Source of the DNA: Lyophyllum atratum
Lineage: Eukaryota > Basidiomycota > Agaricomycetes > Agaricales > Lyophyllaceae
Direction of reading: 5' to 3'
DNA: 64,000 nucleotides
NCBI GenBank assembly: GCA_014905825.1
Contig: JACGCN010000007.1
Coordinates: 372,001-436,000, forward strand
Both the position numbers and the translations under genes were made by a program. The notes beneath the pieces are model-generated. The model did no database searches and was not told the origin of the DNA. It worked only from the letters and a program-made list of their open reading frames with translations. Below are positions 3,190 to 21,799 of the stretch, in pieces. The stretch's first letter is position 1. Each line of letters opens with the position of its first letter.

Positions 3190-3329
3190 GAATGACGAAG
3201 TAAGCTGAAGAGAAACTACAAGTTACAACTCCCTTGTGGAGAGGCCTTTGGTAAACAACTACAAAGCTATATTAAATGGCTTCGGTTCCGAATTCCGCCC
3301 ACATTTTGTTACCACTCCTCGTCACCAGA

Positions 3330-3351
3330 CCCTGGGGGAATGTTGCATCAA
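3330..3351 (+). repeat. Left copy of 22-bp end-associated direct repeat
   Basis: The block starting CCCTGGGGGAAYGTTGCATC is found here and again at 21437-21458 with a single difference (T/C at the Y). Both copies point the same way. It marks the switch from unique sequence to TGCATCA-rich sequence on the left side. Its G-run followed by TGTTG also resembles the polypurine tract and 5' end of a Copia LTR, so an LTR remnant is an alternative reading. Confidence 0.7.
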
Positions 3352-3362
3352 CTGCGCTACTA

Positions 3363-3410
3363 AGCGTCAATGAGTGGTGCATCATAGTCAGTCATGAGCA
3401 TTGACTGATG
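3363..3410 (+). repeat. Left arm of 48-bp imperfect inverted repeat
   Basis: This block matches the reverse complement of 21469-21516 at 42 of 48 positions. The arm is itself close to palindromic, centred on CATGAGCATTG, with TGGTGCATCAT on one side and ATGGTGCATCA on the other. It could therefore fold as a hairpin. It is the best candidate for a terminal or subterminal recognition unit of the surrounding element. Confidence 0.7.
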
Positions 3411-4812
3411 GTGCATCATACTATCGTTGTGCCGTCTTGAATACTAATGCATCATCAATAACTAATGTACTACCGTTGTGCCGTCTTGAATAGTAATGCA
3501 TCGTCGATAACTAATGCATTATAGCGCCAGGTCTTTAATGCATCACTCGTCCAGTCATGAAGTCGGCTTCCTGCCCTCAGACTGGTCATGCATCATGAGG
3601 TCGTTGATGCATCACTGGTTCAGTCTCGAGAGCGGCTCCTGCCCTTATACAGTTAATGCATCATCTAATGCATCACTGGTTCAGTCTCGAGAGCGGCTCC
3701 TGCCCCTAGACAGGTAATGCATCATGAGGTCGCTAATGCATCACTGGTTCAGTCTCGAGAGCGGCTCCTGCCCTCAGACAGGTAATGCATCATGAGGTCG
3801 CTAATGCATCACTGGTCCAATCTTGAAGTCGGCTCCTGCCCTCAGACAGGTAATGCATCATGTTCCTGCCCTCAGACAGGTAATGCATCATGAGGTCGAC
3901 GATGCATCAATAGTCCAACCTTGAAGTCGTCTTCCTTCCCTCAGATAGCTAGTGCATCAAAGGATATTGTGATGCATCGTCCGAACCTACAAGTCAGATA
4001 ATTCCTCTATCGAAGGCTAATGCATCATGAGGTCGTTATGCATCACTCTCCCAGTCATGAAGGCCACTCCTCCTCCCCCTCCTCCAGAAGGTGATGCATT
4101 ATCTTGAAGTTCGCTCCCGGCCGCTTAAATCCTCAGGTACCCCCTACTTCCTCTGACAGTACGATAATGCATTACCACTAGCTCTCCTTGTATCGACGCT
4201 TAATGCATCAGGATGCACATTTTCCTTGTGGCAGCGCCTTCGCGTCCCGCCTCTCAGGCTCAACCAGATCTGCGATCGACGGCGGGAGGGTGAGTGATGC
4301 ATTAACTTCCAGCCTCCTCTTGACGTATAGCTACGGTTCGTGTCTCGTCCTTCTTCCCGTGACAGATAAGCTGACAATCGACTGACAGTATCTGTCACGA
4401 CAATTTGGGTATTCATTCGCAATTCAGATTCCTTCCCCGCCCGTGGCATTCCCGCACCGGTCCTACAGTGATGCATCACCTACTCCCATTGCAGATATCC
4501 CGCCCTGGTTTTAGAGTGATGCATTACCTAGCCCCGTCGTAGATTCCCCACCCCAGCCCTATAGTGTGATGCATCACTTACTGCCTTTGTCAGATCTCCT
4601 GCTCCGCTCTTACCATGATGCATCACCTACTCCTGCTACAGATTTTCCACCCCAGTCCTATAGTGCCGATGTAGACGTCCCGCCCTGCTGTTACAATGAT
4701 GCATCACCCACTCCCATGGCAGATTCCCCACCCCGGTCCTATAGCGTGATGCATTACTTACCCCCGTTCCCGATCTCGAGCCCGGCTCTTAGAGTTGATG
4801 CATTACGCATTA
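3411..4812. repeat. Left satellite-like array of TRATGCATYA palindromes
   Basis: About thirty copies of TRATGCATYA or one-base variants occur in 1.4 kb. Two longer repeat types are visible. At about 3606-3890 a unit of roughly 60-68 bp repeats four times; it begins TRATGCATCACTGGTTCAGT, continues through CTCGAGAGCGGCTCCTGCCC and closes with CAGGTAATGCATCATGAGGT. At about 4469-4806 a different unit of roughly 50 bp repeats, beginning TGATGCATCACCTACTCCC and followed by GCAGAT..CCCGCCC. No convincing coding sequence is present. The array ends just before the stop of the KDZ gene. Confidence 0.85.
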
Positions 4813-4925
4813 TCATGTCGCTCGCGCTCCCTTATATGATTACATGACTCTGAAATGTGTGATTGACATGGTGCAAGTACCGAGTCTTATGGGTATGACA
4901 AAAGTAACACAAGAGATAAGAACCG

Positions 4926-7900
4926 TCAAGACACAGTGCCCGATGCTGCGGATGCTATGCGTTCGCGTGCTTGCTGGATGTAGCTTGGTACTGGTAGCCA
5001 CAGCGTCGTAAAGCGCACGGATAGAGCCTTGCGAATCGCCGCCTGGCGCTCAGCATATGCTAGCAGTCCTTGACCGTGTGGAGTACTACCAGCAGCACTA
5101 TTCTTCCAATACTCCCCCTTTGCCTTCCACCACTCCTCCTGCCACTTGAAGAAGCGGAGGACGCGTTGCATTTCCTCGGATAGAAGGGCGATCTCCTCGG
5201 AGAATTGCATGGCGCGAGCCCTGGACTTACACCATTCGATGCGAAGGGCTGATGCATGACTGATCAGCACATTCAGCAGGAGCCGTGAAACATCGCCACA
5301 TACAGTCCCGGAACACCTCGTCATCCACGCCGATGCCCGCTAATCCCCTCGTTGTCCATATCCACGACATAACAAATTTACCTTGCCCAACGCCTTCCTC
5401 TCCCGAAATCTCGCGAACATCCTCTTGGCGCAAAGGGAGCAGCTGGCCCTGCCAGCCCACCTTCATAAGCAGTACAGACAGAGCTGACAAGGCGGCGTGA
5501 GCAGCTCGGTACTCGTCCGCATAGGCGTCGATCCTGGCTTGTACCGTCGCAATGGCGTTCCGTGCTCGTGTGTTGGCATGCTGGCCGCGGACATTCTGGT
5601 CTTTGAACCTATATAGGTATGATCGAATCTGTAAGTTGTGACGGAGACCATCAAGCGCCTCATCCGCCTGGGCTGTGCGTAGCTCCCACTCGATGTCAGC
5701 TAGGCTAGTATCAAATGGAACCTTCGATCCGATCTGCGATGGGAGCCATAAGGAGTACTCATGGACCGGAACAGCCGTTTTCCTCGCTTGCGCTGCCTGT
5801 GCATCCATACGCCGTAACACTACTACCCTTGGAATGTAGAGCTGTTGTACTGAGGTCCAGGCGGCGATCTTACGTGAGAGAGCATTGTTTCGAAGCTGTA
5901 GTCGGGTCTTCTGCCGGTCTTGTGCGTGTTCCCATACCTTCGAGGTGTCCCCCTTGATAGAACGCCTGATCAGGCAAAGTCAGCACCAGTATATCATAAA
6001 GGAGAAAGAAGGCAAAGAATGGGGCTTCCTGATGCATCAGTCAGATGGCGATCAGGGGCGCATGAGATTCGGTGCATACTCGATAGGTGATGCATCAGTA
6101 ATGCATGGAGAATGTCATACACAACGTTGATGCATCGATGATGCATTGACCGTCGGTGATGCCAGTCCGAGCCAAAATAAGAGAATACTCACTGCTCTGC
6201 CTCTAGATCGAGCCCGGTCGCGACGAGAACACTCCGCGTGATGTTCACATCAAGTGCAACATCGTTGCCCGATGCCAAATCCGCAGCCTCGGAATCGGCC
6301 ATTTGACGGCGTACCACAGCTTGGGTGGGAACTAGACATGGACGTTAGCTACGTGTGGAGTCATAAAAACGATACGCACCCGCCACCTTAACATCATATG
6401 GTGTTGGCTGTTTCGGGTCCGGTTTCGGGTCCCTCTCCCATGCTTCTACTTCCTTCGTCCATTCCAGAACGGTTGCGGCTGGGAGCGAAGCGGTGAGCTC
6501 GTCGTGAGCGATCGTGTGAGAAGCCATGTCGTTCGCTGCAGCACGGAACTTGCGCAGGAAGGTGGGCCCTAGATATCGCAATTAGTTTGAGACGACGAAG
6601 AAAATAGAAAGCGGCGTACCCATTCCTACCACCTTCCGCCAGTTATAGTCGCCAAAGTGGGCGTCAAGTGTATCCCTCCGAGAGCCGGGACCCATCTCCT
6701 TCGTGCTTGCAGCTAGCGGGTTTACCTCGGCCCAACCACGCTCAGGCGCCTCCCCGTCAGTCCGGCCGACGCCGATGGTCAAGTTGAATGAGAACCGGTT
6801 GCGGCATCCAGAGACGTGCGCTGGCAGGTGGAACTTCGGCACGAGAAACTTGACGAACGTCTTGCCGTTGTACATAAAGAATTCATGGTCCATCTTGAAC
6901 ATCCGGTGTTGGAGGTTGATGGACCACTGGCAAGCGATGTCGTATGAGACATAAATGACCTTGACCTTCGAAGTGAAGAGGCTCCTATAGAAGAGGTAGT
7001 CCATGTTGCAATATCTGAAGGATAACATTAGTACGTATCCGTGACCAAGTAAGAATGACCCGGAATTACCGTTCGCCGAACTGAAGGTCTCCCACTGCGT
7101 TCGGTCGTTTCATGTTGTGACGGGCGCATTCGATAGTCCCGACACCAGTCGCAGCGTGAGATTGGCCGGGTTTGGCATTGGTGAGATTTACTGCGTCGTG
7201 CCGGGAACAATTAGATTTCTGTCAGAAAGGAATAGATTAGCCCTTATATAATAAATGAAGACCATAAGGAAGGGCGAACCGGCTCAGTCTCGTCCTTGTG
7301 GAGCTCCAGATGGACGTTATACCCCTTTTGTTCGACGAAATAAGCGGAGCCTTGACAGAGGTCGGGATCGACTCTGTCATTCGAGACGTGCTTGCGTTTC
7401 AGCCGAAAGTTGGCATCGATCCCGACGAAAAGGGCATATAAAAATCTGCGCGAGTCGTCAGTAACGGTAGCGTTCGCAGGAGGTAACGGCATACCTCATC
7501 TCGGGCGGAGCATCCTCCCAGCCCTCAGGTAGGTTCTTGTCTGGTTGGGGGCACGCTGGACAGAGCACGGCACAGTCGCCTTCCTTCGTCGCGGCCACTG
7601 AACCGTCGGGATCATGCCCTCGAGCGGAGCGCTTGTTCATCTTGAGATAGCGCCATTGACGGATACTGAGTAATAGGTTGGGATAGCGATCCTAGCAGCT
7701 GAGGGATGAATAACGTAACTTGATGGTAAAGCCAAAGTGAAACTCACAGGAGGTGGATCAGTACCCGTATTGTCTGTGAAGCGAGCCAAGCTCTGATAGT
7801 ACTCAAATGATGATACCTTGGAGGCATAAGATAGTAGCTCAAAGACTTCAAGCGCTCTGAATGTCGTCGCAGTCCTTGGGAATATAGTTGTGGCAGGGTA

Positions 7901-8775
7901 TAGCCGGTGACGAAGGAGTTGGACTGTGTGAAGCTGAGATGACTGACCACAGGCACAGAAGTCTAGGCCGACGCTATGTATACCGTGTGTGTCAATCACG
8001 GTGAAATTATCACCGGGAGCCTGTTCGGGGTTAGCACATCGTGTCCCATGGGCGTGGCCCAACTGTATCCGTAAGCCCAAGTCCTTTAACTTGCGTTTGA
8101 CGAAGAACACCCCATTCCATTCCTAGATGATGCATTAGGAGCCATGCTACATTTGTCACGAACGAGGACTCACTCTTATCCGATGCAGCGGATTGACGGC
8201 ATGCTCAGTAAGGATGCAGACTTTACACAGTAGCTCTCGGCCGTGGGTGCAATCTAGACATTCATACTTCGCCTTCCTCTCAGGCTCCTCCGACTTGGTA
8301 AGGCACACGATACATAGATCTGACACGCCATGGCCCCGTCCTTCCAGGGTGATCATCTCCTCAAGGTATCTCTCACGCTGAGGTAGCCAAAGGAGCAACG
8401 GTTCATCCTAGGACAGGTTAGTTGAATTAAAAATGAAAAATGTGAGCTTACCCCAGCTGTATGTTTTCGACGAGGGCGCTGTGGCTCAGTCTCCACTGAG
8501 ACATCATTGAGATGTTCGATATAAGCGGGATCAAAAAACTCATCGTCCTCGTCGAAGGGAACGGATGGGTCAAAGTCTTGCTGACAATCTGAATCGACGA
8601 GTGCGGATGGTATGTCTTCGGGATTTGCAGTTGTTGAAAGAAAAGATGTAGAGACGCGGACCTGTCCCCTGGAGGATGTGAAACAAGTGTTTTTGTGGCG
8701 AAGTTCCTCGATTTTCACGGTTCGTCGATTAAGATTCTTGTGAATGATCAACTTGATCTTTTTACCGCGAGCCAT
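4926..8775 (-). CDS. KDZ-family transposase with CxC2 cysteine cluster
   Basis: Transposase of the Kyakuja-Dileera-Zisupton superfamily, expected to act in the nucleus on the ends of its own element. The start MARGKKIKLIIHKN lies at 8775. A later exon carries the CxC2-type zinc cluster CIVCLTK..YECLDC..LLCKVCILTEH..PLHRI (about 8370-8170). Then come LGLRIQLGHAHGTRC, GIHSVGLDFCACG and FPRTATTFRALEVFELLSYA (about 8110-7750), RQWRYLKM..RGHDPDG and CAVLCPACPQPDKNLPEGWE (about 7650-7500), and FLYALFVGIDANFRLKRK. The catalytic region (about 7200-6600) has ATGVGTIECARHNMKRP, MDYLFYRSL, VSYDIACQW, KFHLPAHV and GRTDGEAPERGWAEVN with DTLDAHFGDYNWRK. A helical C-terminal region ends SAASGTVS at 4926. 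About ten exons can be joined without a stop or frameshift, so the gene may be intact. The 3' splice site at about 5256 falls directly after a GCATCAG of the repeat family. Confidence 0.87.
6025..6150. repeat. Cluster of TGATGCATCA motifs inside a KDZ intron
   Basis: Within the intron of the transposase gene at about 5970-6190 there are four to five copies: CTGATGCATCAG, GTGATGCATCAGTAATGCAT and TTGATGCATCGATGATGCAT. This is an internal copy of the terminal-array signal, located well away from the element ends. A single further copy (GATGATGCATTAGG, about 8126-8139) lies in another intron. Confidence 0.75.
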
Positions 8776-8968
8776 AGCGACAAGTGGAGGAGAGTGAAAA
8801 CTTTCCCGGCGTCATCTGAACACAACACGACCAAACAGATCACTCTCAACATCGAGGACGATCATCGGCCTCGACGACCTATCAAGACCTGCTCATCAGG
8901 AGCCTGCTTGTTCATGGTTCTATCTGCTACACTCTCCCCTTACTCTCTTCCAACAATTGACGGTGGTT
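8776..8968. promoter_or_regulatory. Shared promoter region of the divergent KDZ and small basic genes
   Basis: The 193 bp between the transposase ATG (minus) and the small-gene ATG (plus) must hold both promoters. No TATA box or TRATGCATYA motif stands out here. The short spacing suggests coordinated expression; that is an inference. Confidence 0.45.
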
Positions 8969-9710
8969 ATGGGTCGGCGTGCAGAGTACATCACACAGGC
9001 CGAGAGGAGCGCCGGTGCACAGCGGCGTAAGAAGGCATCTGCTGCAACATCACAGTAAGTTATCTGTTTCAACAAGCACTCAATCTTATATGACTTATGA
9101 GCATAGTGGTCAATTGCTGCGCAAAGCCCAGAACCAGCGAGCCTACGAAATTCGCAAAGCATTGGCGCCGCCGAAGCCGCCCAAAGTTACCCTCCCAAAT
9201 TTCTCAACCGTGTCACTTTCTGCTGAGCTCATTTCCCTCGCCGACTTTCCCACTCCCGTGTCATACCATTTTCGTCAAGCTGTCCGAAGCAGTGACGCCT
9301 TCCACGATACCGATTACTCTGACTCGGAGCTCGCCAAGTGGGACTGCCCACCGCCATACCTACACCCATATCCTGCTCCGCATCGCCCCGACCGTCTTGC
9401 CGATGCTCTTCACGGATACCGTCTCCGCGCCCAACAGGAGGAAGAAGATTCGCGCTTGCGCCGTTACGAGATCGAGCCGCTCGGTAGCTTCGCAAAGGGA
9501 GTTCATGCAGAACTCATGCGTCGACACGACCAGTGGAAGCGACTGCGACGAGCGATGGCAGGTATCAGCGAGGACAGCATTGACGGTCATTTGGGAATGG
9601 AGTTGTTACGATGGGAGGCTCGGTGCGTATGTCAACTACAGAAGGATCTGGCTTCCCTCCGGACGGGGTCAGACACATTCCTGGGTCTCTATGTAGATCG
9701 TTGGACCTAG
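8969..9710 (+). CDS. Small basic KDZ-linked protein of unknown function
   Basis: I do not recognise a named family. The start is the ATG at 8969 (MGRRAEYITQAERSAGAQRR). A 54-bp intron with GTAAGT and ATAG follows at about 9055-9108, joining to HGQLLRKAQNQRAYEIRKAL. The N-terminal 45 residues are rich in Arg, Lys, Ala and Gln in a pattern like a bZIP basic region (RKAQNQRAYEIRK), which suggests nucleic-acid binding. No leucine zipper is clear after it. The middle has acidic and proline-rich stretches (DTDYSDSELAKWDCPPPYLH) and the C-terminus is helical (GMELLRWEARCVCQLQKDLA). About 230 residues in all. It is transcribed divergently from the transposase with a 193-bp gap, so an accessory role in transposition or its regulation is plausible but unproven. 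Confidence 0.6.
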
Positions 9711-10632
9711 TTACTGTGATGTAGTGTAGTATACCTCAAACATTGGCTGGGTTCTCATGCCGCAAATGTTGTAATATGTCGATCCCTGTACAGCGTGTTG
9801 AAGATCGAGAATTCGGACATAAGTGGCTTCAGACTTGATACCGGTCATCTACTATGTCTGAGTGATTATTTAATAGGTCTATGATATTCAAAGAGGGTTC
9901 AGACAGGGCAGAAACAAGATTTTTTTAGGGAGTGGACATGAATATGTGTTGACCATGGGGTTGATATTGGTCTTGACACGGCATCTACTTCAGTCCGTTT
10001 CGTAAATCGAGGAGTCTTCGGGGTGCGCTGGAATTGGTGTCTATCACGGGGCATACATGTAGAGTACTCCTTGAGATAATTAATGCGCAGCCCAGTTACC
10101 TCTATCCCCTGGTATATCCAGGTTATGATTGTGCCATTTCTTTCAGTAGCTATTTATTCGATCTCTGATTGGCTCCCCACCTTGTCAGGTGCGGCCCGAA
10201 GGCTACTTTTAGCCATGACGTCTAAATTTCCCAAAATAAATCCTTCCGATCGTGATTCAGACGTGTTCTTTCCTTCCAATCCATCACTTCGGGCTGCTGC
10301 GATGCACACTGGCAGCCAGGACCGCGGCCTAAGTTTTTTTTGTCCTTGTCAGAAGGGCATTTTCGTCACACCAGGTTTTTTTCCAAGAAATTTTTTTATA
10401 TTATAGAGTAGATAGGTATGTGGTGGGGAGCGGGGGACAGGTTATGTACAAATTGGGTAGCAATGGGAGGGTGGGAATGTAGCGGGCAACAGTACGATAG
10501 CGAGAGTGTAACAAAGCAGTAGCAGTCAGCAAAGCACGGAGTCAGGGAAGTGTGACGCAGCAAAGAAGGTGGTATAGTGTACACGAGGCTGCAGATAAGT
10601 CCAAAAAAGAAGTCCAAAAAAATGTCACACGA
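9711..10632. other. Gene-free stretch between two convergent genes
   Basis: No coding sequence that I trust. Several T-runs (for example about 9919-9926 and 10332-10397) lie between the 3' ends of the small basic gene and the viroplasmin-domain gene, consistent with untranslated regions. The decamer TRATGCATYA is absent from this stretch. Confidence 0.5.
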
Positions 10633-11551
10633 CTAGTAAGGGATCTCGCCAGCGTTCCCACTGTTGAAGGCCTTGGCAAAGATCTTGACGGCCTCGGCCC
10701 TAGTTTTGGTGCGCGCAAAGCACGAACCTGGGACGCACACAACGAGAGGGGCTACCCTGTGCCTATATGACGAGTGCTCAGCCATATTACCTGAAAGCTT
10801 TTAAACGACTCACCAGCCAGCGAAGACACCAATCTCACGGCCTCTGGTCACATAGTACCAACGAGTGTTGGGATCATCATCTTGTGGAATTGATTTGTAA
10901 GGGTCGGTGGCAAAAAAAATGTAAGGATAGACTCACACTCATCTTCGCTGTCGCTAATAACCACGACTCGGCGAGGCGGCTCCAGATCACCAACCTGGGC
11001 TTCAGCGTCGTCGTCGTCGAGCGCAGCCTCCTGCGCAAAGGTGAGGGAGGGGGCTGAGGGCTCTGTGGCTTCGGGAATGGACTCTGTGGCTTCGGGAATG
11101 GAGTCCGAGGCTTTGGGAATGGGGTCCGGGACTGCTAGAGTACCGAAGAATTGTAACTAAGCGAAATAGAGTCATATTGACAAAATCAACTTACTCTTGG
11201 CAGCGGCTATCGCGACTTCTTCGTCTCCGGAGGGAACAGCGCTGTCAGCTGCGGGAGGGGGTAACAACTCGCTGGTGGGAGCGGCTACCGCGTCGTCTGC
11301 GCCTGCAGAAGAAACAGCACCGTCTGCAGCGGGAGCAGAAAGGGCCACAATGGAAGCGAGGTTGGTGGACGAGGCAGGATCAACGAGCAAGGTCAACCCT
11401 GGGAAAAAATCGGGATGAGTAAGGACCGCATAAACAATAGAGTCAGGGACTTACGGCCGCCGATGGCAAGGAGAGAGAGGAGCTCGGCAACATTGATTGT
11501 CAAGGAGGAAGGCGCCGTTGCTCCGTCCTGCTTGGCAAGGATATTGGTCAT
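10633..11551 (-). CDS. Disordered protein with C-terminal RNase H1-N / viroplasmin-like domain
   Basis: The start ATG is at 11551 (MTNILAKQDGATAPSSLTIN). Five exons can be joined: the first ends LLAIGG, the second is Ala/Pro/Ser-rich (STNLASIVALSAPAADGAVS), the third has a thrice-repeated SIPEA/PIPKA heptad-like motif (about 11055-11125) and ends in acidic VVVISDSEDE, and the last two give the folded domain. That domain reads TRWYYVTRGREIGVFAGWHR and then VAPLVVCVPGSCFARTKTRA, EAVKIFAKAF. It matches the YxVxxGrxxGvyxxWxxxxxxVxGxxgxxfkxfxsxxeA pattern of the RNase H1 N-terminal (Cauli_VI) domain, which binds RNA/DNA hybrids or dsRNA. No catalytic RNase H domain follows; the stop is at 10633. 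Its place between the transposase and the large cargo gene suggests it belongs to the element. Confidence 0.7.
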
Positions 11552-11835
11552 GATAAAAGCTTGTGAAGGAGTGGATGAAAGGGGAATGGGTCCCTGGTGG
11601 CGTTGATTCCCGGCTATTTATTCAACCAGGCGGGGGCTTGATGCAACTTTGATGGTATCGAGTGATGCAAGGTCGTGATTGGCTACCTATGCTAGTTCAG
11701 CAAATAAGGTTCGTCTCGGCATCATTTGCCGTGGCAGGAACAACACAAGTGGGGGAATTTTCGCTTGCATTGAGTTCCTGGAACTCGGCTCGATCGCGTT
11801 TACATTTTTAACTTTGCTTCCGCGTAAAATCTTAG
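11552..11835. promoter_or_regulatory. Divergent promoter region
   Basis: These 284 bp separate the ATG of the viroplasmin-domain gene (minus) from the ATG of the large cargo gene (plus), the second head-to-head pair in the element. The stretch contains TGATGCAA-like half motifs (about 11638 and 11661) but no full TRATGCATYA. Confidence 0.4.
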
Positions 11836-14800
11836 ATGCCGGGGCCCAAGTGGACGACAGACGCGCAGTATGAGTTCCTCAACTCGCGACTCAAGGACTA
11901 TTTGGACGTGAAAGAAGAAAAAGTTCCAGATTATACGAATTTCTGGGGTGCACTGTATACGGACTGGGCGGCGGAATACCCAGAGAACCTAGCTGTCTTC
12001 CCAGATAAATCAGTGTCTGATTTTACTCCGGAAGAGCATGACCAGCTCAAAGGAGCGATCAAAGCGCGACGCCAGGTTTGTTGATGCCGTACTTGTGGTC
12101 ACATCGCATATTAGCTGACAACTGCATTAATTAGCAACTACAAACATGGTACCGATGGAGGGGATCTGCCCGGGGTCGTGGCGCTGTAGCGCAATCGAAG
12201 GTGCTTGGTAACCTGTTCACGACCTCGCGCCTACCCCAGAAGGCCGAAATATATTCGAAACTCTACTACCAGTCGAAGATCGCAGATGTCGTCAAAGAGG
12301 AGGCCAAGAGACTGAATATCAAGGGCCGTGGTGAGATTCTCAAGCTCCGGAGCAGACTCACACGGGAGATGTGCGAGGCGGAAACAGATGAGGAAGTTCT
12401 GGCAAAAGTCGAAGAGCACTTGGCGGACCTCATTGCACAAAGGGGGTTGGCGCCAGAACCCCATCAAAGGTCAACTGATGAGTATATGGAGTAAGTCTAG
12501 CTTGTGGCGATAATAAGCTCCCTCTGATTCCGAATGGTTTTCACAGGGCAATCGAAGACTGCCCCAGGGTGCTCAATCGTTTCTTCAATGCACTCGCCGA
12601 GAAGACTGGATGGGCCTTCTCTGTCCTCATGGGCGGTCCTGACCCCTCGAGAGACGGTGATATCACGGTAGCTAGGTGAGTGTACAGCAAAAGCTTCGAC
12701 GGTGAAGTACTCAGACCTCGTCTGCCAGTTTTCATGCGGGCGAAGATGGCTTTGACAATAACTTCTCGGCGGCACACCCAAATTTTCACAAGGAGTACAT
12801 GCAGCCTTTTACCGACTACCTGTCTCAGGTCTATTGTAAGTAACCTCCGTATTCGTATGTATGGTTATTTTACTGACATACCTTACTAGCACCTGCTGTC
12901 CGACGTTCACGATCTTCGAATGCAGAAGTACAGGCAGACGATGGACGTATGGATGGTGTGGGAGTTGAGACGGAGATGGAGCTGTTCACGAAGTCTGATG
13001 TGGATATACTGCAGTCGACGGTTGATGCATTATTGACTTTAAAGTCATCAGGTGAGTCTTAATGCATTATGTACCGTCTTGCTTTATTCTAAAAGGTTCG
13101 GGTTACTGTGCTTCCAAAGGTGATGCATCAACTGGCTCTACCACAAGTGCCGCTCCAGTGACGCCGTCGCCTTCCCATCCAGCGTTGACGACAGCCGCCA
13201 CCTCCACCATCCCTTCTATTCCGGTAACAACTCCGCCTTCCAGTGCGGCATTAGCGACAACAGCCGTCTCCCCCGTCGCTTCCATTCCAGTGACGCCGCC
13301 TTCTGATCAAGATGGTACTGCTCCGCCAGAACCAGTCACGGACCCAATCCCCATCCATTCTACCTCCCTCACTGATCCTCCCTTGGGGCCATTGTCGCCC
13401 TCGGATCACCCGGCGTATCCTTTCTCTACCCCGCCTGCTCCCACGCCCAATGCCGCAACCGCCGACATCACCCAAGTTTACGGTGGGAACGACATGTCTT
13501 TTTTAAACCAAGATCAAGACCTCCTGTCTGCATTGCTCGACAGCCTTAGTGGGAATGGAGAGGGCGCCAGTGTTGGGCCAGATAATTTTCAGTTCACTCC
13601 TCAGTTCGACGCAGATTTCTCCTGGATGGTCCCGTTCAACATGCCTGGCTATGATGCATCAGGTCTGATCCCGCAGGCTTCGTCGACGCTCCCGGGCCTA
13701 TCTGGGGCCTTTGATCCCTATGCAGACATCACGATGTCAAACCTCGGAATCCCTACGCTTCCGGACCTGTCTCACAACACCGCCCTTCCTCTCCTTCCTC
13801 TTGGCCTTCCTCCTTCTCCTTGTCCTTCCCTTCCAGATCTCACGGCTCGTCCGAGTTCCCACAGTAATGCTTCTGAGACTCCGTCCAATCCCAAGCCTGT
13901 CATCACGAACGCTCCCCAGCTCGCCCCACTGACCGGGACCCCTCGTACCTCAGCAAATCACGCTCTTCCTAATGCATCAGCGACTTTGTCCAATCCCACG
14001 CCTGTCATCACGAGTGCTCCCCAGTTCGCCCTGCTGACCCCTAGTGCCTCAGGGAATCACGCTACCCCTGATGCATCATCATCGAAGCAGGCCCGCTCAC
14101 GGTCTGGGCGCCAAATCATTCCCTCGACTCGGGCTGAGGCGATGAACAAAATAGGCTCGGTCCAGACGCTGTCCCTCGACTCGGCAAACAAAGAGAACAT
14201 TCCGCCGGGCACGGGACAGGAGCGACCTGCCTGGGCCGTAGCCGCTGAAGCTCACTTAACGACACGCGATCTCGGAGATGGGTGGACAAAATGCGTGAGC
14301 GCTTGGAAGGCGTTCGAGGACGCGATGGGGCCGAATGCGAAGGGAGCGCTGCCGTCCGCGAAGACTCGCCCGGAGGAGTGGACGAAATGGGTTGCGAAGG
14401 GCCGTCAGGGTATCCGCGCGTATAACGCGACGCCGACGATCCAGGACCCGCTCGACTTTGGATACGCGGTCATGGCCTGGTGGAAGAGTATGCAGCCTGC
14501 CTTCCGCCAAAGCTCCGAGTTAATGCCGAAACCGGTCTATGACCCTCCGATGCTCGATGTGTCAAACGTCGATGAATGGGCGGCTCTGCGGAAGGGTGGA
14601 CCCAATGGACTAGTGTCAGTCCTGACGGTTTTGGTATGGTGGGGCCAGTGCCTGAAGTCGGGGTCCCAGTGGCAGGAGAATTCGGAGCCGTATTGGCGTG
14701 CGTGCGTCGATGATGTGCACCAATGCTTAGGGAAGCTGATGCCGTCAGCGTCGAGCCAGAAACGCACGCGCGGAGCTAAGGATGATGCATCAGGTTCATC

Positions 14801-14886
14801 TAAACGGTGAGCTCGTCCCGTCACTAATCTCCGCTCAAGCTGGACTGACATGGTACATCTACATCAGGCCCAGGAACGCGAAGTAG
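11836..14886 (+). CDS. Large KDZ-linked protein of unknown function with in-frame palindrome motifs
   Basis: No named family is recognised. Exons can be joined as: MPGPKWTTDAQYEFLNSRLK to KARRQ; QLQTWYRWRGSARG to STDEYME; AIEDCPRVLNRFFNALAEKT to ITVAR; then via FDNNFSAAHPNFHKEYMQPF to a long final part. The first 250 residues look folded and helical. The middle (about 13090-14100) is Ser/Thr/Pro-rich and disordered, with two tandem copies of about 30 residues centred on NPKPVITNAPQLAPLT and NPTPVITSAPQFALLT. The last 240 residues (KENIPPGTGQERPAWAVAAE to CLGKLMPS) look folded again. A final short intron at 14809-14867 would give the end SKRPRNAK at 14886; without it the stop is at 14810. Six TRATGCATYA copies lie in the coding sequence, all in the same frame. 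Similar WTxxAQxxFLxxR proteins are, from general knowledge, common hypothetical proteins in Agaricomycetes. Confidence 0.65.
13023..14792 (+). repeat. Six in-frame TRATGCATYA copies within coding sequence
   Basis: Copies at 13023-13032, 13121-13130, 13652-13661, 13970-13979, 14069-14078 and 14783-14792 are read as (D/N)-A-(S/L): VDALL, GDASTG, YDASGL, PNASAT, PDASSS, DDASGS. One more copy (13060-13069) is in the intron between the first two. The decamer is the same one that fills the terminal arrays. Confidence 0.85.
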
Positions 14887-15014
14887 ATATGTTTTTGTTG
14901 AGATCATTCTTGCCCCTTGACCGTTGGTAGAGTATTCTTGCCTATTTCGTATTGTCGTCATTTAATCTGGTTGATCTACCCCCCTTAATCTTGATCGTTG
15001 TACATATGGTATGT

Positions 15015-15123
15015 CTTGCTTTCCTCGACGTTTCTTGCTTTCTTGATGCACGAAGTTTTGTTTTCCTGCAATAAATTCTTGTTTTCTTGATACCGGTCTT
15101 GTTTTCTTGATTCACAAACCTTT
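15015..15123 (+). repeat. Pyrimidine-biased tandem repeat (left of Copia)
   Basis: Imperfect units of about 20-24 bp built on TTGTTTTCTTGATAC / TTGCTTTCTTGATGC repeat four to five times. The same units resume after the Copia insertion (20396-20470), so they form one array that the retrotransposon split. Confidence 0.75.
15119..15123. repeat. Left target-site duplication of Copia (CCTTT)
   Basis: CCTTT immediately precedes the left LTR and is repeated directly after the right LTR at 20391-20395, the 5-bp duplication expected of Copia integrases. Confidence 0.9.
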
Positions 15124-15524
15124 TGTTGAGATAAGGACATGCCCAGACCCGAGGCAAGGTCTTCGATACGATAAGTTTCCTTTTATGGACATTTTACTAT
15201 ATTTAGAAATCTCGCATATTCGTTACGCCACGGCGCAGAGCGTCGTGGTGCGTTTCTATTCAGTTTGCCGCTCGTTATTTACCAGTCTTTACCAGAACTT
15301 TATTTCACGATCATATATCTACCTAGTACACAGAAAAGGACACCCTTAGTCGTCTTACACATTGTGTCGGACTCTAAGGGTGAGCCAACTTTACTTACAT
15401 CCTATTTACTTCGTTACTGACTTATTACCTGTAGCTTACTTATTGTGATTCTCTACAGGTACATAATAAAGTCGTCTTACACATTGTGTCGGACTCTAAG
15501 GCTTACTTATTGTGATTCTCTACA
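15124..15524 (+). repeat. 5' LTR of Copia element
   Basis: The LTR is bounded by TG..CA. Near its 3' end it holds an internal partial duplication: the segment GTCGTCTTACACATTGTGTC followed by GGACTCTAAGG occurs twice (about 15350-15380 and 15471-15500), and GCTTACTTATTGTGATTCTC also occurs twice (15434 and 15501). Confidence 0.95.
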
Positions 15525-15545
15525 GGTTATTGGGCTCCCGCTCTG
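15525..15545 (+). promoter_or_regulatory. Putative primer-binding site
   Basis: Directly after the LTR is GGTTATTGGGCTCCCGC. It resembles the reverse complement of the anticodon arm of initiator tRNA-Met (GGGCCCAUAACC) rather than a tRNA 3' end, which is how Copia-type elements that use a half-tRNA primer look. The match is imperfect, so the primer identity is tentative. Confidence 0.4.
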
Positions 15546-15618
15546 CGCTTTCCTGCGAAATCACACGGCACACACCGACGGACTCACACTTTTATACACC
15601 ACATCCACATTACCCAAC

Positions 15619-18600
15619 ATGTCTGCTGGAAACAGTAATAACCCCCCTACATTCCCCGATGACGAGAAATTCGACGGGTCGAATTTCGTCGGCTTCAAAA
15701 CCCGGATCCAGATCGCCGTGAGGGTTCGCGGCGCCATGGGTTATCTAGCCGGAAACATACCATCTCCATCCAACCCCCCATCCTTGCAACTACCCCCTGA
15801 ACCGACCGACTGGACATCGTCTACCCCCTCACTGGCAGAGTGGGGAGTGCGCGATGCATGGGTACTTGCCCTGATCGCGTATAACACCAAGAACCCCGTC
15901 GGTCTTGGCGTTAAGCTGAATGGAACCGCTGCCGAAGCATGGGCATCGCTCACCGACATCTACGGCACTGTCTCCGAACTCGGAGCCGCCGACGCAGAAT
16001 CTGACCTGCGAGCGATTGCACTCCACGATGGCGAGGACTTCCTGGAGCACGTCAAAACCCTCCGCTCCAAGTGGACGTCGGCCACAGACAAAGGTGCCGT
16101 CGTCGACGACAAAGCTTTCCGTGCTATATTTCTTCGTTCACTCCCCGAGTCGTGGAATATCATCGTCTCCACCGTCTACTCCACCAAAACTTCTGCGGAG
16201 GCCATCTCAGCCTTGACTCTGCACTGGGAACGCTTGAAGCGTCAGGGTACCGCCACAAAAGGCGCCACCACCGCCCTACAGGCGAAGGTTCAGCAGAAGA
16301 ACAAGTCAAACTCGGACTTACTGTGCGCGAACAACAACTGCGGTCGGAGGGGACATATCATCGACAACTGTTACTGGCCGGGTGGAGGAAAGGAGGGTCA
16401 GTTCCCGGCGAACTTCAGGAATAGAGGGAAACAGGGTACCTCGGATACTAAAACACCAGCAGTCACTACTGCGAACGTCGCCGACGCCACCGGCGCTACA
16501 TCCCACATCACATACGCCCTAATCGCCCAGCCATTCGGCCCGTCCGTCATCACCCCGGAGGCCCTATACAACGCGATAGAGGGAAAGGAGATGGGCGTCT
16601 TAGACGCCTACCTTGACGGATCTCTAAACGTCTCAGACACACTCACCGTCCCAAACTCCCCTATTGCGCTCGCCGCGAACACGCGCGTCGTCCCTACCTA
16701 CGCGGATTCCGGTGCCAGTGACTATTGCTTCGTGAACCGCGAGGACTTCACGAACTACGAGCCCTTCGCGACACCTCGACAGGGGCAGGGGGCTAATAAA
16801 GACGTTACCTTCAGCATCGTTGGAAAGGGGACTGTCAAACGTACTGTCTGGCTAAACGGCGCATCATCCGACCTCGTCTTCAGCGCTCTTCACACCCCCG
16901 ACTTATCCGCAAACCTTGTATCGGTCGGGAAGCTCGACGCCGCGGGATGGACCATTACCTTTGCTGGGGGCAAAGCGACGTTCATCGACCCGAAGGGTCG
17001 CGCAGTTATGGTCGGGGTGGGATCGCACGGCATGTATAGACTTGAGACGTCCCCTCCACCGACTAGGGCGATGATCGCACGGTCCCTGGACGTCCCAGTT
17101 GATCTGGACGTTTGGCACCGCCGACTAGGGCATGCAGGGGTGACGGGCATTCGGAATATGGCTAGAAAGAAGTTAGTGGACGGGCTACACATTCTGGGGA
17201 AGCCTGAGGTGAAGGGATTATGCGAGGACTGTATTTACGGGAAACATACCTCTCGCCCGTACGATGGTCAGGTCACCCCCGAGTCCACACCCAACGAACG
17301 CTGCCACCTTGACCTTTGGGGTCCTGCGTCGCTCCCATCCCTTGGTGGCGCTTCCTACATGATGATCGTCGTGGATGGCGGTACCTCACACTCCTTCGGG
17401 TTCTACCTCTCCAGAAAGGACTCGGTGACTACGTTGACGGCGTTCAAAACCTACCATGTCACTTCTGAACGCCAGACCGGGCATAAGCTGCAGATCGCGC
17501 GTGTCGACGCTGGGAGGGAGTGGATAAACCAGGACTGGTTCGACTATTGCGGTCAACACGGGATCGTCCTGGAGATCAGCACCCCGTATGCTCACGCCCA
17601 AAATGGACTTGCTGAAAGGACCATACGCACCATCATCGAAGGCGTCAGATGCATGCTCGCCGACAGCGGCCTCCCCAAATACCTATGGGCTGAGGCCGCC
17701 GCCTGTATGATTTACCTCCGTAACCTCATCCCCTCCTCCCGTCACACCGATCTCGTACCGAAGGCAGTATGGACTGGGAAGCGTCAAGGCGTAGCGCACC
17801 TTCGACCTTTTGGTTGCATTGCATTCGCCAAGGTACCGACGGAACTGGTCACTTCTAAATTAAACCCGCGTTCGATCAAATACGTCATGATCGGCTACAC
17901 CGAGAACGGATACAAACTGTTCGATCAAGGTACACGCCAAGTCCTCACTAGCCGGGACGTCATCTTCGAGGAAGGATCTGGTCATCGGGCGATCACACTT
18001 CTGTCCGACGACGACCTCGTATCCGTAGAGGAACCCATCCCTAACACCGCCACACCTGGTGTCCTCCAACCCAGACAGCCCATTGCCCCACGTATTCGGA
18101 CCGACGGACCGTTGCACCCACCACCCACCCACGCCACCACCACCGCCGCACCTCCTCCAAATCCCGCCACCCCCGCACGTGACATCGACGCGCCCACTGC
18201 GCCTCGTCGCTCTGCGCGGCTTGCTACCACCGCCCAGCCCACCCCCGCCATCGTTGCCGCGCGTGAGACTCTTGCCATGGAGGACGCTGCCAGGGCTGCC
18301 GGTGAAGATTGGGCCACGGACACGGAGCTACCTCGCGCCTTCGTCGCGTCCGACATGCACGCGTTCCTAGCCTCCCTCGACGACGCAGTCGCCTCCGACA
18401 CCCACGTACCCCGACACTACGGGGAGGCGATACGGCGCCCCGATTTATGGGTGCCTGCGATGGAGGCGGAACTGGAGGTCCTTCGTAAACGAGAGGTTTT
18501 TACCTTGGTACCTGCGGAGTCCGTGCCAGCCGACAAGCGGGTTATCGACTGCATGTGGGTTTACGCCAACAAGTTCGACGCCGACGGAAACATCGTCAAA

Positions 18601-19968
18601 CGGAAGGCGCGGCTTGTCGCGAAGGGGTACACACAGGTGCATGGGGAGGACTTTGACGAGACTTACGCCGCTGTCGCGCGCCTGGAGTCGATGAGGATGA
18701 CCGCCGCCATTGCGGCGCAGCTGGGTCTCCACATTTGGCAGCTCGACTTCGTCTCCGCCTACCTCAACAGCGTGCTGGAACACGTTGTCTACATGAAGGT
18801 GCCGCCGGGTTTTCAGGGGGGGGAGGGAAAGGTCTGCTTACTCCAGAAATCCCTTTACGGCATGATGCAGGGAGGCCACGACTGGTGGCATACATTAAAC
18901 GGGGCGTACACTAGGTTGGGGTACAAACCGTCTCGCGCTGATAGCTGTGTTCGCTCCAAGAAAGAAGGGGAGGAGCGCACTATTACGAGCACGTGGGCGG
19001 ACGATGTGTTTGGGGTATCTTCGACGGTGGAAGGAGCGGCGAAGGCGAAGGGAGACTTAGGGAAGGAGTATGAGGCAAAGGATATGGGGGAGATGAAGTA
19101 TATTCTCGGCATGCGCGTTGACCGCGATGCTGAAACGGGTGCGATCTCTTTATCCCAGCGGGCTTACCTCGAGCGCGTTTTAGAGCGTTTCAAACATCTC
19201 GACTGCAATCCCCATCCTACTCCTCTCCCCTCCGGCATTCACCTCGACGACTCTCAGTCACCACGCACCGACGCCGACAAGCTCTTCATGAAAGACAAAC
19301 CCTACCGAGAGCTACTGGGATGCTACATGTGGGCGCAGTGCGCCTCGCGTCCCGACCTCTCCTACGCCGTCGGTCTCTTAGCGAGATTCCAGTCCAATCC
19401 CGGACCTACTCACTGGAAGGCCATGGTTCATGTACTGGGCTACATTAAGGGGACGCTGGATTATCGTCTTACCTATAGTCGGGTGGAAGGAGGTCTTAAG
19501 CCCGTTGGCTATGTCGACGCGGATTTCGGGGGAGACTACGACACCCGCCGCTCCACTGGCGGCTACGTCTTCATGATGGCAAACTGCGCTGTCTCCTGGG
19601 GATCCAAACGCCAACCCACCGTTGCTCTCTCTACTACCGAAGCGGAGTACATGGCTTTAACGCGCGGGGCGCAGCAGGCTCTCTGGATGCACAACTTCCT
19701 GGTGGAAGTCGATCTCCCCCAGTCACTACCCGCCACGTTATACGGCGACAACACATCGTCCATAGCCCTCACCAAGTCGACGAAGGGTCATACTCGGGCA
19801 AAGCACATCGACATCCGGCATCACTATATTCGGGAACGCGTACAGGAAGGCGACATCGAGATACTCCACGTTCCTTCCTCCGAGAACCCCGCCGACATGT
19901 TCACCAAGCCTCTCCCTCGCGTTCTCCACGAGCACTGTGTCGACCTGCTCAACCTTCGACCTCTTTAG
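15619..19968 (+). CDS. Copia Gag-Pol polyprotein
   Basis: A 1,449-residue polyprotein if the ATG at 15619 (MSAGNSNNPPTFPDDEKFDG) is used; the frame opens further upstream inside the LTR, but those codons precede any plausible start. In order: Gag (UBN2-like) to residue about 230; zinc knuckle CANNNCGRRGHIIDNC at about 236-251, spaced C-X4-C-X4-H-X4-C; aspartic protease YADSGASDYCF at about 362; pre-integrase zinc motif WHRRLGH..CEDCIYGK; integrase core with D at about 565 (HLDLWGP), VDAGREW and NGLAERTIRT; reverse transcriptase with RKARLVAKGYTQ, QLDFVSAYLNS and the catalytic box TWADDVFG at about 1126-1133; RNase H with VDADFGGDYDTRRSTGGYVF, STTEAEYMAL, YGDNTSSIAL and HIDIRHHYIRE. No stop or frameshift interrupts it. 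Confidence 0.97.
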   Translation: MSAGNSNNPPTFPDDEKFDGSNFVGFKTRIQIAVRVRGAMGYLAGNIPSPSNPPSLQLPPEPTDWTSSTPSLAEWGVRDAWVLALIAYNTKNPVGLGVKLNGTAAEAWASLTDIYGTVSELGAADAESDLRAIALHDGEDFLEHVKTLRSKWTSATDKGAVVDDKAFRAIFLRSLPESWNIIVSTVYSTKTSAEAISALTLHWERLKRQGTATKGATTALQAKVQQKNKSNSDLLCANNNCGRRGHIIDNCYWPGGGKEGQFPANFRNRGKQGTSDTKTPAVTTANVADATGATSHITYALIAQPFGPSVITPEALYNAIEGKEMGVLDAYLDGSLNVSDTLTVPNSPIALAANTRVVPTYADSGASDYCFVNREDFTNYEPFATPRQGQGANKDVTFSIVGKGTVKRTVWLNGASSDLVFSALHTPDLSANLVSVGKLDAAGWTITFAGGKATFIDPKGRAVMVGVGSHGMYRLETSPPPTRAMIARSLDVPVDLDVWHRRLGHAGVTGIRNMARKKLVDGLHILGKPEVKGLCEDCIYGKHTSRPYDGQVTPESTPNERCHLDLWGPASLPSLGGASYMMIVVDGGTSHSFGFYLSRKDSVTTLTAFKTYHVTSERQTGHKLQIARVDAGREWINQDWFDYCGQHGIVLEISTPYAHAQNGLAERTIRTIIEGVRCMLADSGLPKYLWAEAAACMIYLRNLIPSSRHTDLVPKAVWTGKRQGVAHLRPFGCIAFAKVPTELVTSKLNPRSIKYVMIGYTENGYKLFDQGTRQVLTSRDVIFEEGSGHRAITLLSDDDLVSVEEPIPNTATPGVLQPRQPIAPRIRTDGPLHPPPTHATTTAAPPPNPATPARDIDAPTAPRRSARLATTAQPTPAIVAARETLAMEDAARAAGEDWATDTELPRAFVASDMHAFLASLDDAVASDTHVPRHYGEAIRRPDLWVPAMEAELEVLRKREVFTLVPAESVPADKRVIDCMWVYANKFDADGNIVKRKARLVAKGYTQVHGEDFDETYAAVARLESMRMTAAIAAQLGLHIWQLDFVSAYLNSVLEHVVYMKVPPGFQGGEGKVCLLQKSLYGMMQGGHDWWHTLNGAYTRLGYKPSRADSCVRSKKEGEERTITSTWADDVFGVSSTVEGAAKAKGDLGKEYEAKDMGEMKYILGMRVDRDAETGAISLSQRAYLERVLERFKHLDCNPHPTPLPSGIHLDDSQSPRTDADKLFMKDKPYRELLGCYMWAQCASRPDLSYAVGLLARFQSNPGPTHWKAMVHVLGYIKGTLDYRLTYSRVEGGLKPVGYVDADFGGDYDTRRSTGGYVFMMANCAVSWGSKRQPTVALSTTEAEYMALTRGAQQALWMHNFLVEVDLPQSLPATLYGDNTSSIALTKSTKGHTRAKHIDIRHHYIRERVQEGDIEILHVPSSENPADMFTKPLPRVLHEHCVDLLNLRPL

Positions 19969-19980
19969 GATCTTAGCAGT

Positions 19981-19989
19981 CCGGGGGAG
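19981..19989 (+). promoter_or_regulatory. Polypurine tract of Copia element
   Basis: CCGGGGGAG lies immediately before the 3' LTR (TGTTGAG), the expected site for plus-strand DNA priming. Confidence 0.8.
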
Positions 19990-20390
19990 TGTTGAGATAA
20001 GGACATGCCCAGACCCGAGGCAAGGTCTTCGATACGATAAGTTTCCTTTTATGGACATTTTACTATATTTAGAAATCTCGCATATTCGTTACGCCACGGC
20101 GCAGAGCGTCGTGGTGCGTTTCTATTCAGTTTGCCGCTCGTTATTTACCAGTCTTTACCAGAACTTTATTTCACGATCATATATCTACCTAGTACACAGA
20201 AAAGGACACCCTTAGTCGTCTTACACATTGTGTCGGACTCTAAGGGTGAGCCAACTTTACTTACATCCTATTTACTTCGTTACTGACTTATTACCTGTAG
20301 CTTACTTATTGTGATTCTCTACAGGTACATAATAAAGTCGTCTTACACATTGTGTCGGACTCTAAGGCTTACTTATTGTGATTCTCTACA
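19990..20390 (+). repeat. 3' LTR of Copia element
   Basis: Same length (401 bp) and, by eye, same sequence as the 5' LTR, ending CTCTACA and followed by the target duplication CCTTT. Confidence 0.95.
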
Positions 20391-20395
20391 CCTTT

Positions 20396-20470
20396 GTTTT
20401 GCATGAACTTTTGTTTTCTTGCTACACAGTATTGTTTTCTTGGTACCATTCTTGTTTTCTTGATACACTT
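20396..20470 (+). repeat. Pyrimidine-biased tandem repeat (right of Copia)
   Basis: Continuation of the split array: TTTTGTTTTCTTGCTAC, TATTGTTTTCTTGGTAC, and TCTTGTTTTCTTGATAC in succession. Confidence 0.75.
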
Positions 20471-21436
20471 ACAATATGATATGTTTTAATGTGTAAGTCA
20501 GTGTCCGGATGAGGCAAAAGAAATGTCACGCGGTGGCACGGCCCATGCTGGATAATGCATGAGGTGATGCATTATCTGCAGTATCGATGATTCGTGACGC
20601 GCGTAAGGAGCGCTCGCCGCGACCACATCTAATGCATCATCGGTGAGTGGGTGTCCCGTGAGTAATGCATCACATATATATGCAGAAACGGAAGCCGTAA
20701 ATAATGCGTGAGCAGCCAACGCATTGGGTGATGCATCACACCTGTACGAAAAAAAGGAAGCCGAGATTCAAGAGGTAACGCATGAGCAGTGAACGCGCTG
20801 GCTTATGCATCATGCCTATACAAAATAAGGAAACCGTGGATAATGCATGAGCAGGTGTGATGCATCATACCCTTACGAGAAAAAGGAAGCCGAGAGGTAA
20901 TGGATGATGCCTGAGCAGTGAACGCGCTGGCTAATGCATCATCAGGTGAGTGGGTGTAATGCATCATACCTGTACGAAAAAAGAAAGTCGAGACCCGAGA
21001 GGTAATGCATGAGCAGTGAACACGCTGACTTATGCATCATCAGGTGAGTGGGTGAAAAGAAGCTGAGAGGTAATGCATGACGGTCAACGGGCTGTCTAAT
21101 GCATCATCAGTGAGTGGGCGTGAGGAATCCGCGAGCTAATGCATGAGCGTCTCTTCACTCATGCATCATCCGCGAGAGTGCTGATAATGCATCATCGGCA
21201 AATGGTTATCCCATCACTGAGGTATCATGCGTGTACGAGACATGAGAAGCTGCCTGATGCATCAATGGTCAATGCATCAATGGTCCGCGTGAGGTCAAGT
21301 GATGCATTATCTGTGCGCACGGGTCCCTACCACCAATCCTTTGCGCTTGCGTCTAGTCAATGTCTAGTCATCAAGTAATGCATCTATTCAACACTCAAAA
21401 CAAGGCTATGCGGTACATGGAGTGACTGCGTTCGGA

Positions 21437-21458
21437 CCCTGGGGGAACGTTGCATCAA
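21437..21458 (+). repeat. Right copy of 22-bp end-associated direct repeat
   Basis: Same orientation as 3330-3351, one mismatch. Here it lies inside (left of) the inverted-repeat arm, whereas on the left side it lies outside the arm. Confidence 0.7.
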
Positions 21459-21468
21459 TTACGAGCAT

Positions 21469-21516
21469 CATCAGCCAATGCTCATGACCGGCTATAATGC
21501 ACCACACATTAACGCT
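21469..21516 (-). repeat. Right arm of 48-bp imperfect inverted repeat
   Basis: Reverse complement of the block at 3363-3410, 42 of 48 positions identical. It contains CCAATGCTCATGACCGGC flanked by GCATCATC and TGCACCACA. Confidence 0.7.
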
Positions 21517-21799
21517 CACCACCAGTGTATCATGCATCAAAGTATCTGTATAGGCTGTCCTCGTCGACCTTCCCGATATCAAATGCGATTCCTCCTGATC
21601 AAGATCACTGCCAGACTTCTCAGAAATGGATGAGCGCAGCAGCTACAACGAGCGCTCTATATTCCTGCCACTTTCGTGGTCGACGAGTACACAATCACCC
21701 GTCCCTGGCCGTGCCGAATCTTGATTATGATACGCATTTGACAGTCCTGCCTTGAAATCTCACCACTCTTCGTCTGTTCTCCATCAACCTCACAAATGT

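Follow-up and report, generated by a model that had tools for sequence, protein, structure and literature searches.

The window analyzed here, a 64,000-bp stretch of the Lyophyllum atratum genome, contains a transposon, E1, of 18,235 bp (positions 3323–21557, forward strand, including a nested Copia retrotransposon), whose limits were set by its target-site duplication (TSD), its 5′-CA..TG-3′ termini (CACCAG...GGCTG), an empty site and alignment with a related element, E2. The TSD, TCCTCGT, is present at 3316–3322 on the left and at 21558–21564 on the right, and a query made of the joined E1 flanks aligns with C2:373873-374069 (197 bases, 99%), where a single TCCTCGT is present; the whole E1 block therefore moved as one unit. 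This second copy of the region in the assembly, which lacks E1, is presumably the other haplotype. The block at 3330–21542 drawn in the original prediction came within about 15 bp of these limits. The two termini share only CA, and an imperfect 52-bp inverted repeat (left arm 3363–3414, forward strand; right arm 21465–21516, reverse strand; 87%) lies about 40 bp farther in. Eighteen bp inside each end (+18) is a predicted terminal recognition site, TGTTGCATCA at 3341–3350 on the left and TGATGCATGA, read inward, at 21530–21539 on the right. A direct repeat, ACCCTGGGGGAAYGTTGCATCA, was considered as the element boundaries (3329 and 21436) and rejected, as the TSD and empty site put the right end at 21557; this left terminal sequence (3329–3350) recurs in the same orientation at 21436–21457, some 100 bp short of the right end, and with three or fewer mismatches it is found in the genome only at those two E1 places and at the E2 left end. 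E1 and a second relative, E3, are both inserted in TCCTCGTC (window 3316–3323 and C46:513747-513756), which hints at a target preference from two cases only.

As judged from its ends, TSD and CxC2 domain, E1 is a Kyakuja-type KDZ transposon; mushroom genomes commonly carry KDZ elements, and the Kyakuja group reportedly goes back to Iyer et al. 2014. E1 does not have the combination of 8-bp TSD and terminal inverted repeats (TIRs) that marks Zisupton-type elements, since TSDs are 7 bp long in all ten elements delimited in this study (below), one of them matching at 6/7 positions, and it has a CACCA end and a 7-bp TSD where the CACTA/En-Spm class has CACTA TIRs and 2–3-bp TSDs. The KDZ transposase gene is on the reverse strand (4926–8811, limits approximate) and was recognized from exon frames with PF18758 and PF18803. 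Its catalytic-domain exon frame (6582–7109) matches the KDZ domain PF18758 with E = 3.1e-38 and 132 bits (cut-off 26.6), and the exon frame of the CxC2 cysteine cluster (7637–8122; PF18803, E = 3.5e-42) is a candidate DNA-binding part, whose structure model (pLDDT 48) was too poor to use. The forward strand carries a small, basic, helix-rich companion gene, P0001 (8969–9710, 229 aa), a large companion gene, P0006 (11836–14807, 902 aa), and, at about 15117–20410, the nested Copia, which is not part of the original element and is probably very recent because its LTRs are 100% identical over at least 397 bp. No match to Tet_JBP was found in E1. The element genes are under purifying selection: between E1 and E2, dN/dS values measured on stop-to-stop frames (two of which hit one stop each in the relative) are 0.12 for the KDZ core, 0.20 for the C-terminal exon, 0.21 for CxC2 and 0.39 for the N-terminal exon of the transposase, 0.19 for the small companion, and 0.41, 0.36 and 0.28 for three frames of the large companion, the last being its last exon.

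The palindromic decamer TRATGCATYA had been said to pervade this block and not the rest of the window, and exact counts bear this out: all 45 copies in the window lie at 3445–21309, whereas 100 dinucleotide shuffles of the window averaged 0.26 copies and never exceeded 3. If one mismatch is allowed there are 72 sites (shuffled mean 7.33), 33 of them in a left subterminal array (3341–4805), 23 in a right array (20553–21539), 13 between the arrays and 3 outside the element. The “about 30” left and “about 25” right copies originally reported agree with these one-mismatch counts but not with the exact ones, which are 24 (3445–4805) and 11 (20565–21309). The cluster expected at 6025–6150 is present as two exact and two one-mismatch copies (6030–6148) in a probable intron of the KDZ gene, which appears as a gap between exon alignments with E3; single copies expected near 8130 and 13060 were found at 8128 and 13060, with another at 13023; and the six copies said to be in coding sequence are all in the open reading frame at 13056–14810 (13060, over the start, 13121, 13652, 13970, 14069 and 14783). 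Among 188 ATGCAT sites in the six arrays of the three related elements, each side has a flanking T in 91% and A or G in 90%, and at positions beyond these flanks no single base exceeds 43%, so the site is a 10-bp palindrome.

In the whole genome (64.76 Mb) the exact decamer occurs 385 times, and a control, the pattern read backwards (which contains CpG), 122 times. Three elements totalling 52.7 kb hold 149 of the 385: E1, E2 (C119:1567899-1588115) and E3 (C46:499487-513746), each with a KDZ gene. The remaining 236 are spread over ~64.7 Mb at 3.6 per Mb, where equal base frequencies predict 3.8 per Mb, although this background is still about twice that of the reversed control. There are 89 close decamer pairs genome-wide and one for the control, and all 89 fall in these three copies of one KDZ family (24 in E1, 28 in E2 and 37 in E3). 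The decamer is thus neither equally frequent in KDZ-free DNA nor a general satellite. The expectation that its density would peak at other KDZ loci holds for E2 and E3, which belong to the same family, but not beyond them: other KDZ families examined in the same genome have at most single copies, and a single decamer serving all KDZ loci was rejected when no exact copy was found in stretches of up to ~1.5 kb on either side of 30 KDZ matches (L008–L037), other families having other motifs.

E1 and E2 are ~76–88% alike over the larger gene blocks, and E3 is more distant, with dS between E1 and E3 of 1.27–1.81 in the estimable frames and saturation in the others. Apart from a 76-bp piece at a single terminus, the spacers of the E1 and E3 arrays do not align, and we conclude from this divergence that the decamer persisted while its surroundings were replaced. 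Comparison of E1 with E2, where array repeats make the array alignments uncertain, gave left-array identities of 86% in sites and 62% outside them when started from E1 (74% and 64% from E2); of the 24 E1 sites, 12 have stayed in place. Two pieces of the right array gave 98% in sites against 78% outside (5 of 7 sites kept) and 90% against 86% (1 of 3 kept). All three decamers of window 4931–9800 are kept in E2; only two of the seven from 9800–15116, the large-companion region, are kept, and these seven are treated as incidental. A 7.4-kb insertion (L045:224-7654; C119:1580223-1587653) breaks the E2 right array; it contains an open frame of 1467 aa and looks Helitron-like. That the arrays are simply neutral, satellite-like tandem repeats, grown by slippage in the non-coding ends, would suit the tandem nature of parts of them and their fast turnover between E1 and E2; persistence of the decamer between spacers that no longer align, the irregular spacing of its copies and the placement of palindromes at the ends (below) all speak against such an origin, which we consider very improbable.

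The same genome contains related KDZ transposons with other palindromes; we write TGATGCATCA for the word of the decamer family and TGATATATCA and GTTTGCAAAC for those of two other families. TGATATATCA is the decamer word with AT in place of GC at its center, and three further KDZ loci (20 kb each; core 59–62% identical to that of E1) have 11, 18 and 9 copies of it, where 0.02 is expected. The two codes hardly mix: TRATNNATYA words with center GC number 45, 49 and 55 in E1, E2 and E3 (0, 2 and 1 with other centers), and 1, 0 and 1 in the three AT-code loci. Genome-wide, TGATATATCA pairs number 46 forward and 38 reverse (control 0), and merging pairs gave 13 clusters, of which 10 are no more than 20 kb from a KDZ/CxC2 place, zones that make up 3.7% of the genome; the clusters are not independent, because some are probably allelic. 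The three without a KDZ gene near are C61:722k, whose KDZ partner seems to be separated from it by a 31-kb insertion, and C72:464k and C141:1120k, which are possible non-autonomous or decayed copies. A pair at C1:3182k had been suspected of belonging to a further AT-code array, but it stands alone. One AT-code element, K29, has a Tet_JBP-like frame (L051:203-835; C13:837402-838034; E = 1.1e-4, below the cut-off) that is 80% identical in K27.

GTTTGCAAAC was found at the KDZ locus C65, and its 20 pairs genome-wide (control 0) sit at both ends of each of four KDZ elements, all four clusters being no more than 20 kb from KDZ/CxC2 places. Two GTTTGCAAAC elements in C65:131.5-159.0k lie in opposite orientation ~0.7 kb apart and have different target duplications. 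The three codes map to three KDZ clades; at C117, sister to C65, no clear palindrome array was seen in 6.9 kb near one end. Pairs of TGATNNATCA were found at 103 forward places (control 0), and among the matches listed (the first 50 of these) five GT/AC-center places, with pairs of TGATGTATCA, TGATACATCA and TGATATATCA, have no KDZ match near (C2:1015k, C24:1555k, C62:214k, C64:135k and C77:301k). The presence of three codes in one host bears on whether the arrays bind a transcription factor of the host, perhaps of homeodomain or bZIP-like type, that the element uses for its own expression. TRAT..ATYA resembles the half-sites of homeodomain factors, and some copies are intronic or intergenic, as such a role would allow; a host factor predicts neither three codes for three KDZ clades nor sites at +18 of both cut points, and the decamer is near its random rate outside the three elements, so we regard this explanation as improbable.

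The outermost palindrome has a regular position. Of the 66 KDZ/CxC2 places, ten elements were delimited by TSDs: E1–E3, K27, K31, K29, C65a, C65b, C13:879-892k and C77:599-626k. The 7-bp TSDs are complete in all but E2, where 6 of 7 positions match, and each element has one end that begins CACC and another that begins CAG. Ends were set by the TSD and not by the offset of the palindrome; the near end of C65a was first spotted by offset and then confirmed by its TSD. At all 20 ends, across the three code families, the ten bases from +18 are the family word, intact or degenerate. Eighteen of these 20 decamers reach a palindromy of 8/10 or more, 11 of them being perfect, and the first 28 bases of the 20 ends have their only peak of palindromy at +18 (mean 8.8/10, as against 0.6–3.9 at offsets 0–17); decamers that are at least 8/10 palindromic make up a background of 1.4% inside six elements. 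The GC-family sites at +18 are degenerate, none of the six being perfect, and the CACC ends of E2 (6/10) and E3 (4/10) are the weakest. By itself, a 7-bp duplication next to CA..TG proves little: in the search for the AT-code elements, 0.4–0.9 chance matches are expected per search zone, and K29 had two 7-bp TSD candidates and K31 an extra one of 8 bp; those with CACC/CAGG ends, as in the other families, were kept and one was dropped in each case. Because chance duplications are expected, the AT-family ends, which also rest on the common CACC/CAGG, are less firm. Firmer ends are those of E1, which has an empty site, and of the four GTTTGCAAAC elements, whose TSDs all differ and lie where the flanks break off. 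Element-specific silencing had also been suggested, and would make the decamer a target of methylation or small RNAs. Fungi do silence repeats, and dense repeats confined to the element would suit a tag; the motif has no CpG, however, and silencing accounts neither for the +18 palindrome that both ends carry nor for the change of code between families, and we hold it to be extremely unlikely.

The explanation that we favor, and consider highly probable, is that the decamer serves one Kyakuja-type KDZ family as its own end-recognition site and is read by a dimeric protein that the element encodes. Such a protein would bind the palindrome that starts 18 bp inside each CA-terminus, and the subterminal arrays, with tens of sites per end in the decamer family, would recruit it and hold it cooperatively; the two ends would then be paired and cut, leaving the 7-bp target duplication, and in sister families the same layout with another palindrome would keep the proteins off each other's ends. 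The layout, the +18 spacing, the family-specific codes, the insertion of E1 as a unit and the purifying selection are observed; binding, dimerization, the identity of the reader and the lack of cross-reaction are what we infer here. Weighing against this explanation are the degenerate +18 sites of the GC family, the partial conservation of decamers between E1 and E2, the lack of a clear array at C117, the palindrome clusters with no KDZ gene near, the small share of KDZ places that were delimited, and the less firm AT-family ends. The suggestion that the decamer is an element-encoded protein's binding site is the best reading for this family, and decamer density peaks at both other copies as well; a code common to all KDZ elements is not supported.

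The transposase itself, through its CxC2/N-terminal region, is the most economical choice of reader, and we propose it tentatively, at somewhat less than an even chance. Among the proteins compared, no other than KDZ with CxC2 occurs in each of the three code families. In the AT family nothing matches the N-terminal exon of the E1 transposase, whose best match outside E1–E3 is 38 residues in C117 (E = 0.006), and the N-terminal exons of the AT-code elements match one another (33–61%); this pattern would suit a specificity-determining part, although overall divergence alone may explain it.

The main rival is a variant of the favored explanation in which a separate accessory protein, the large or the small companion, reads the palindromes and KDZ only cuts the CA-termini; we regard this as a real possibility, though less likely than not. 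In this genome E1–E3 alone have the small companion at full length, its dN/dS is low (above), its N-terminus is basic and helical, and its structure model is all-helical (mean pLDDT 61, a low confidence). The large companion has weak relatives outside E1–E3 at 11 places (the N-terminal third in 8 and the C-terminal end in 3), each ~5–11 kb from a KDZ gene in a comparison of match lists, and weak similarity is also seen in AT-code elements, so that this gene seems to accompany Kyakuja elements often. A division of labor of this kind has a precedent in the TNPA and TNPD of En/Spm, in the portions of PMC2613891 available to us. Against an accessory reader, no counterpart of the small companion common to the three AT-code elements was found, the GTTTGCAAAC elements gave no match to the large companion, and no DNA-binding domain was recognized, either by Pfam in the companions or by a fold search of the small one, which gave no match at E <0.001. 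The small companion, which the original prediction had named as a possible reader, is a candidate for the decamer code, but not for a general reader, because it is confined to the three decamer elements. At C141:1366732-1368065 a CxC2 frame without a KDZ match lies beside a 29-residue match to the small companion's N-terminus (C141:1367979).

Returning to recognition of the ends by a dimeric element protein, we suggest, as a proposal about equally likely to prove right or wrong, that Kyakuja elements dispense with conventional TIRs because a palindromic dock 18 bp from the cut, together with the array, takes their place, and that the families of this genome have drifted apart into mutually blind codes (TGAT-GC-ATCA, TGAT-AT-ATCA and GTTTGCAAAC) by way of the transposase's DNA-binding part. 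We found nothing on how KDZ ends are recognized, and no description of a +18 site or family code among the titles and abstract openings listed for the KDZ, Zisupton/Dileera and Kyakuja literature; the accessible parts of PMC12730594, PMC12810828, PMC8290104 and PMC7641404 mention no such code, and the Marasmius paper (PMC8290104) reports having characterized KDZ/Plavaka TIR motifs in a supplementary figure. The +18 palindrome offers a sequence signature by which both complete copies and non-autonomous ones could be found. It makes the identity of the end-reading protein a simple matter of oligonucleotide binding, and the families provide naturally related recognition codes, including two that are alike except for the central two bases.

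Several known systems share parts of this arrangement. hAT elements have short TIRs and 8-bp TSDs. In the accounts of Hermes and Ac/Ds partly available to us, zinc domains of the transposase bind several subterminal copies, though that transposase is unrelated. Cryptococcus KDZ1-3 likewise have a KDZ transposase and are ~9–11 kb long, but have CxC1 rather than CxC2, TIRs of 139–241 bp and TSDs of 4–8 bp, and the available parts of their description (PMC12810828) mention no subterminal motif code. Kyakuja elements, as far as the accessible portion of Kojima 2025 (PMC12730594) describes them, have CA..TG ends, 7-bp TSDs and no TIRs; E1 is like them in KDZ with CxC2, 7-bp TSDs and 5′-CA..TG-3′ termini; at its very ends only CA is shared, but the imperfect inverted repeat lies a little farther in. 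It differs from that description in its +18 palindrome, its subterminal arrays and the family codes of its genome, and it has no Tet_JBP match. The closest parallel in layout is with CACTA/En-Spm elements, which, according to the portions of PMC2613891 at hand, have reiterated subterminal motifs (there bound by TNPA), an accessory gene product, and a conserved transposase and termini, with motifs that diverge between subfamilies of one genome. E1 differs from these in its transposase superfamily, its 7-bp rather than 3-bp TSD, the lack of a CACTA TIR, its short palindromes and its +18 site. The decamers are therefore best read, by analogy, as putative family-specific sites of dimer type comparable to the CACTA subterminal repeats; recognition of subterminal repeats as such is known, and what appears to be new, in light of the papers searched, is its Kyakuja setting, the palindromes at +18 and the presence of several codes in one genome.
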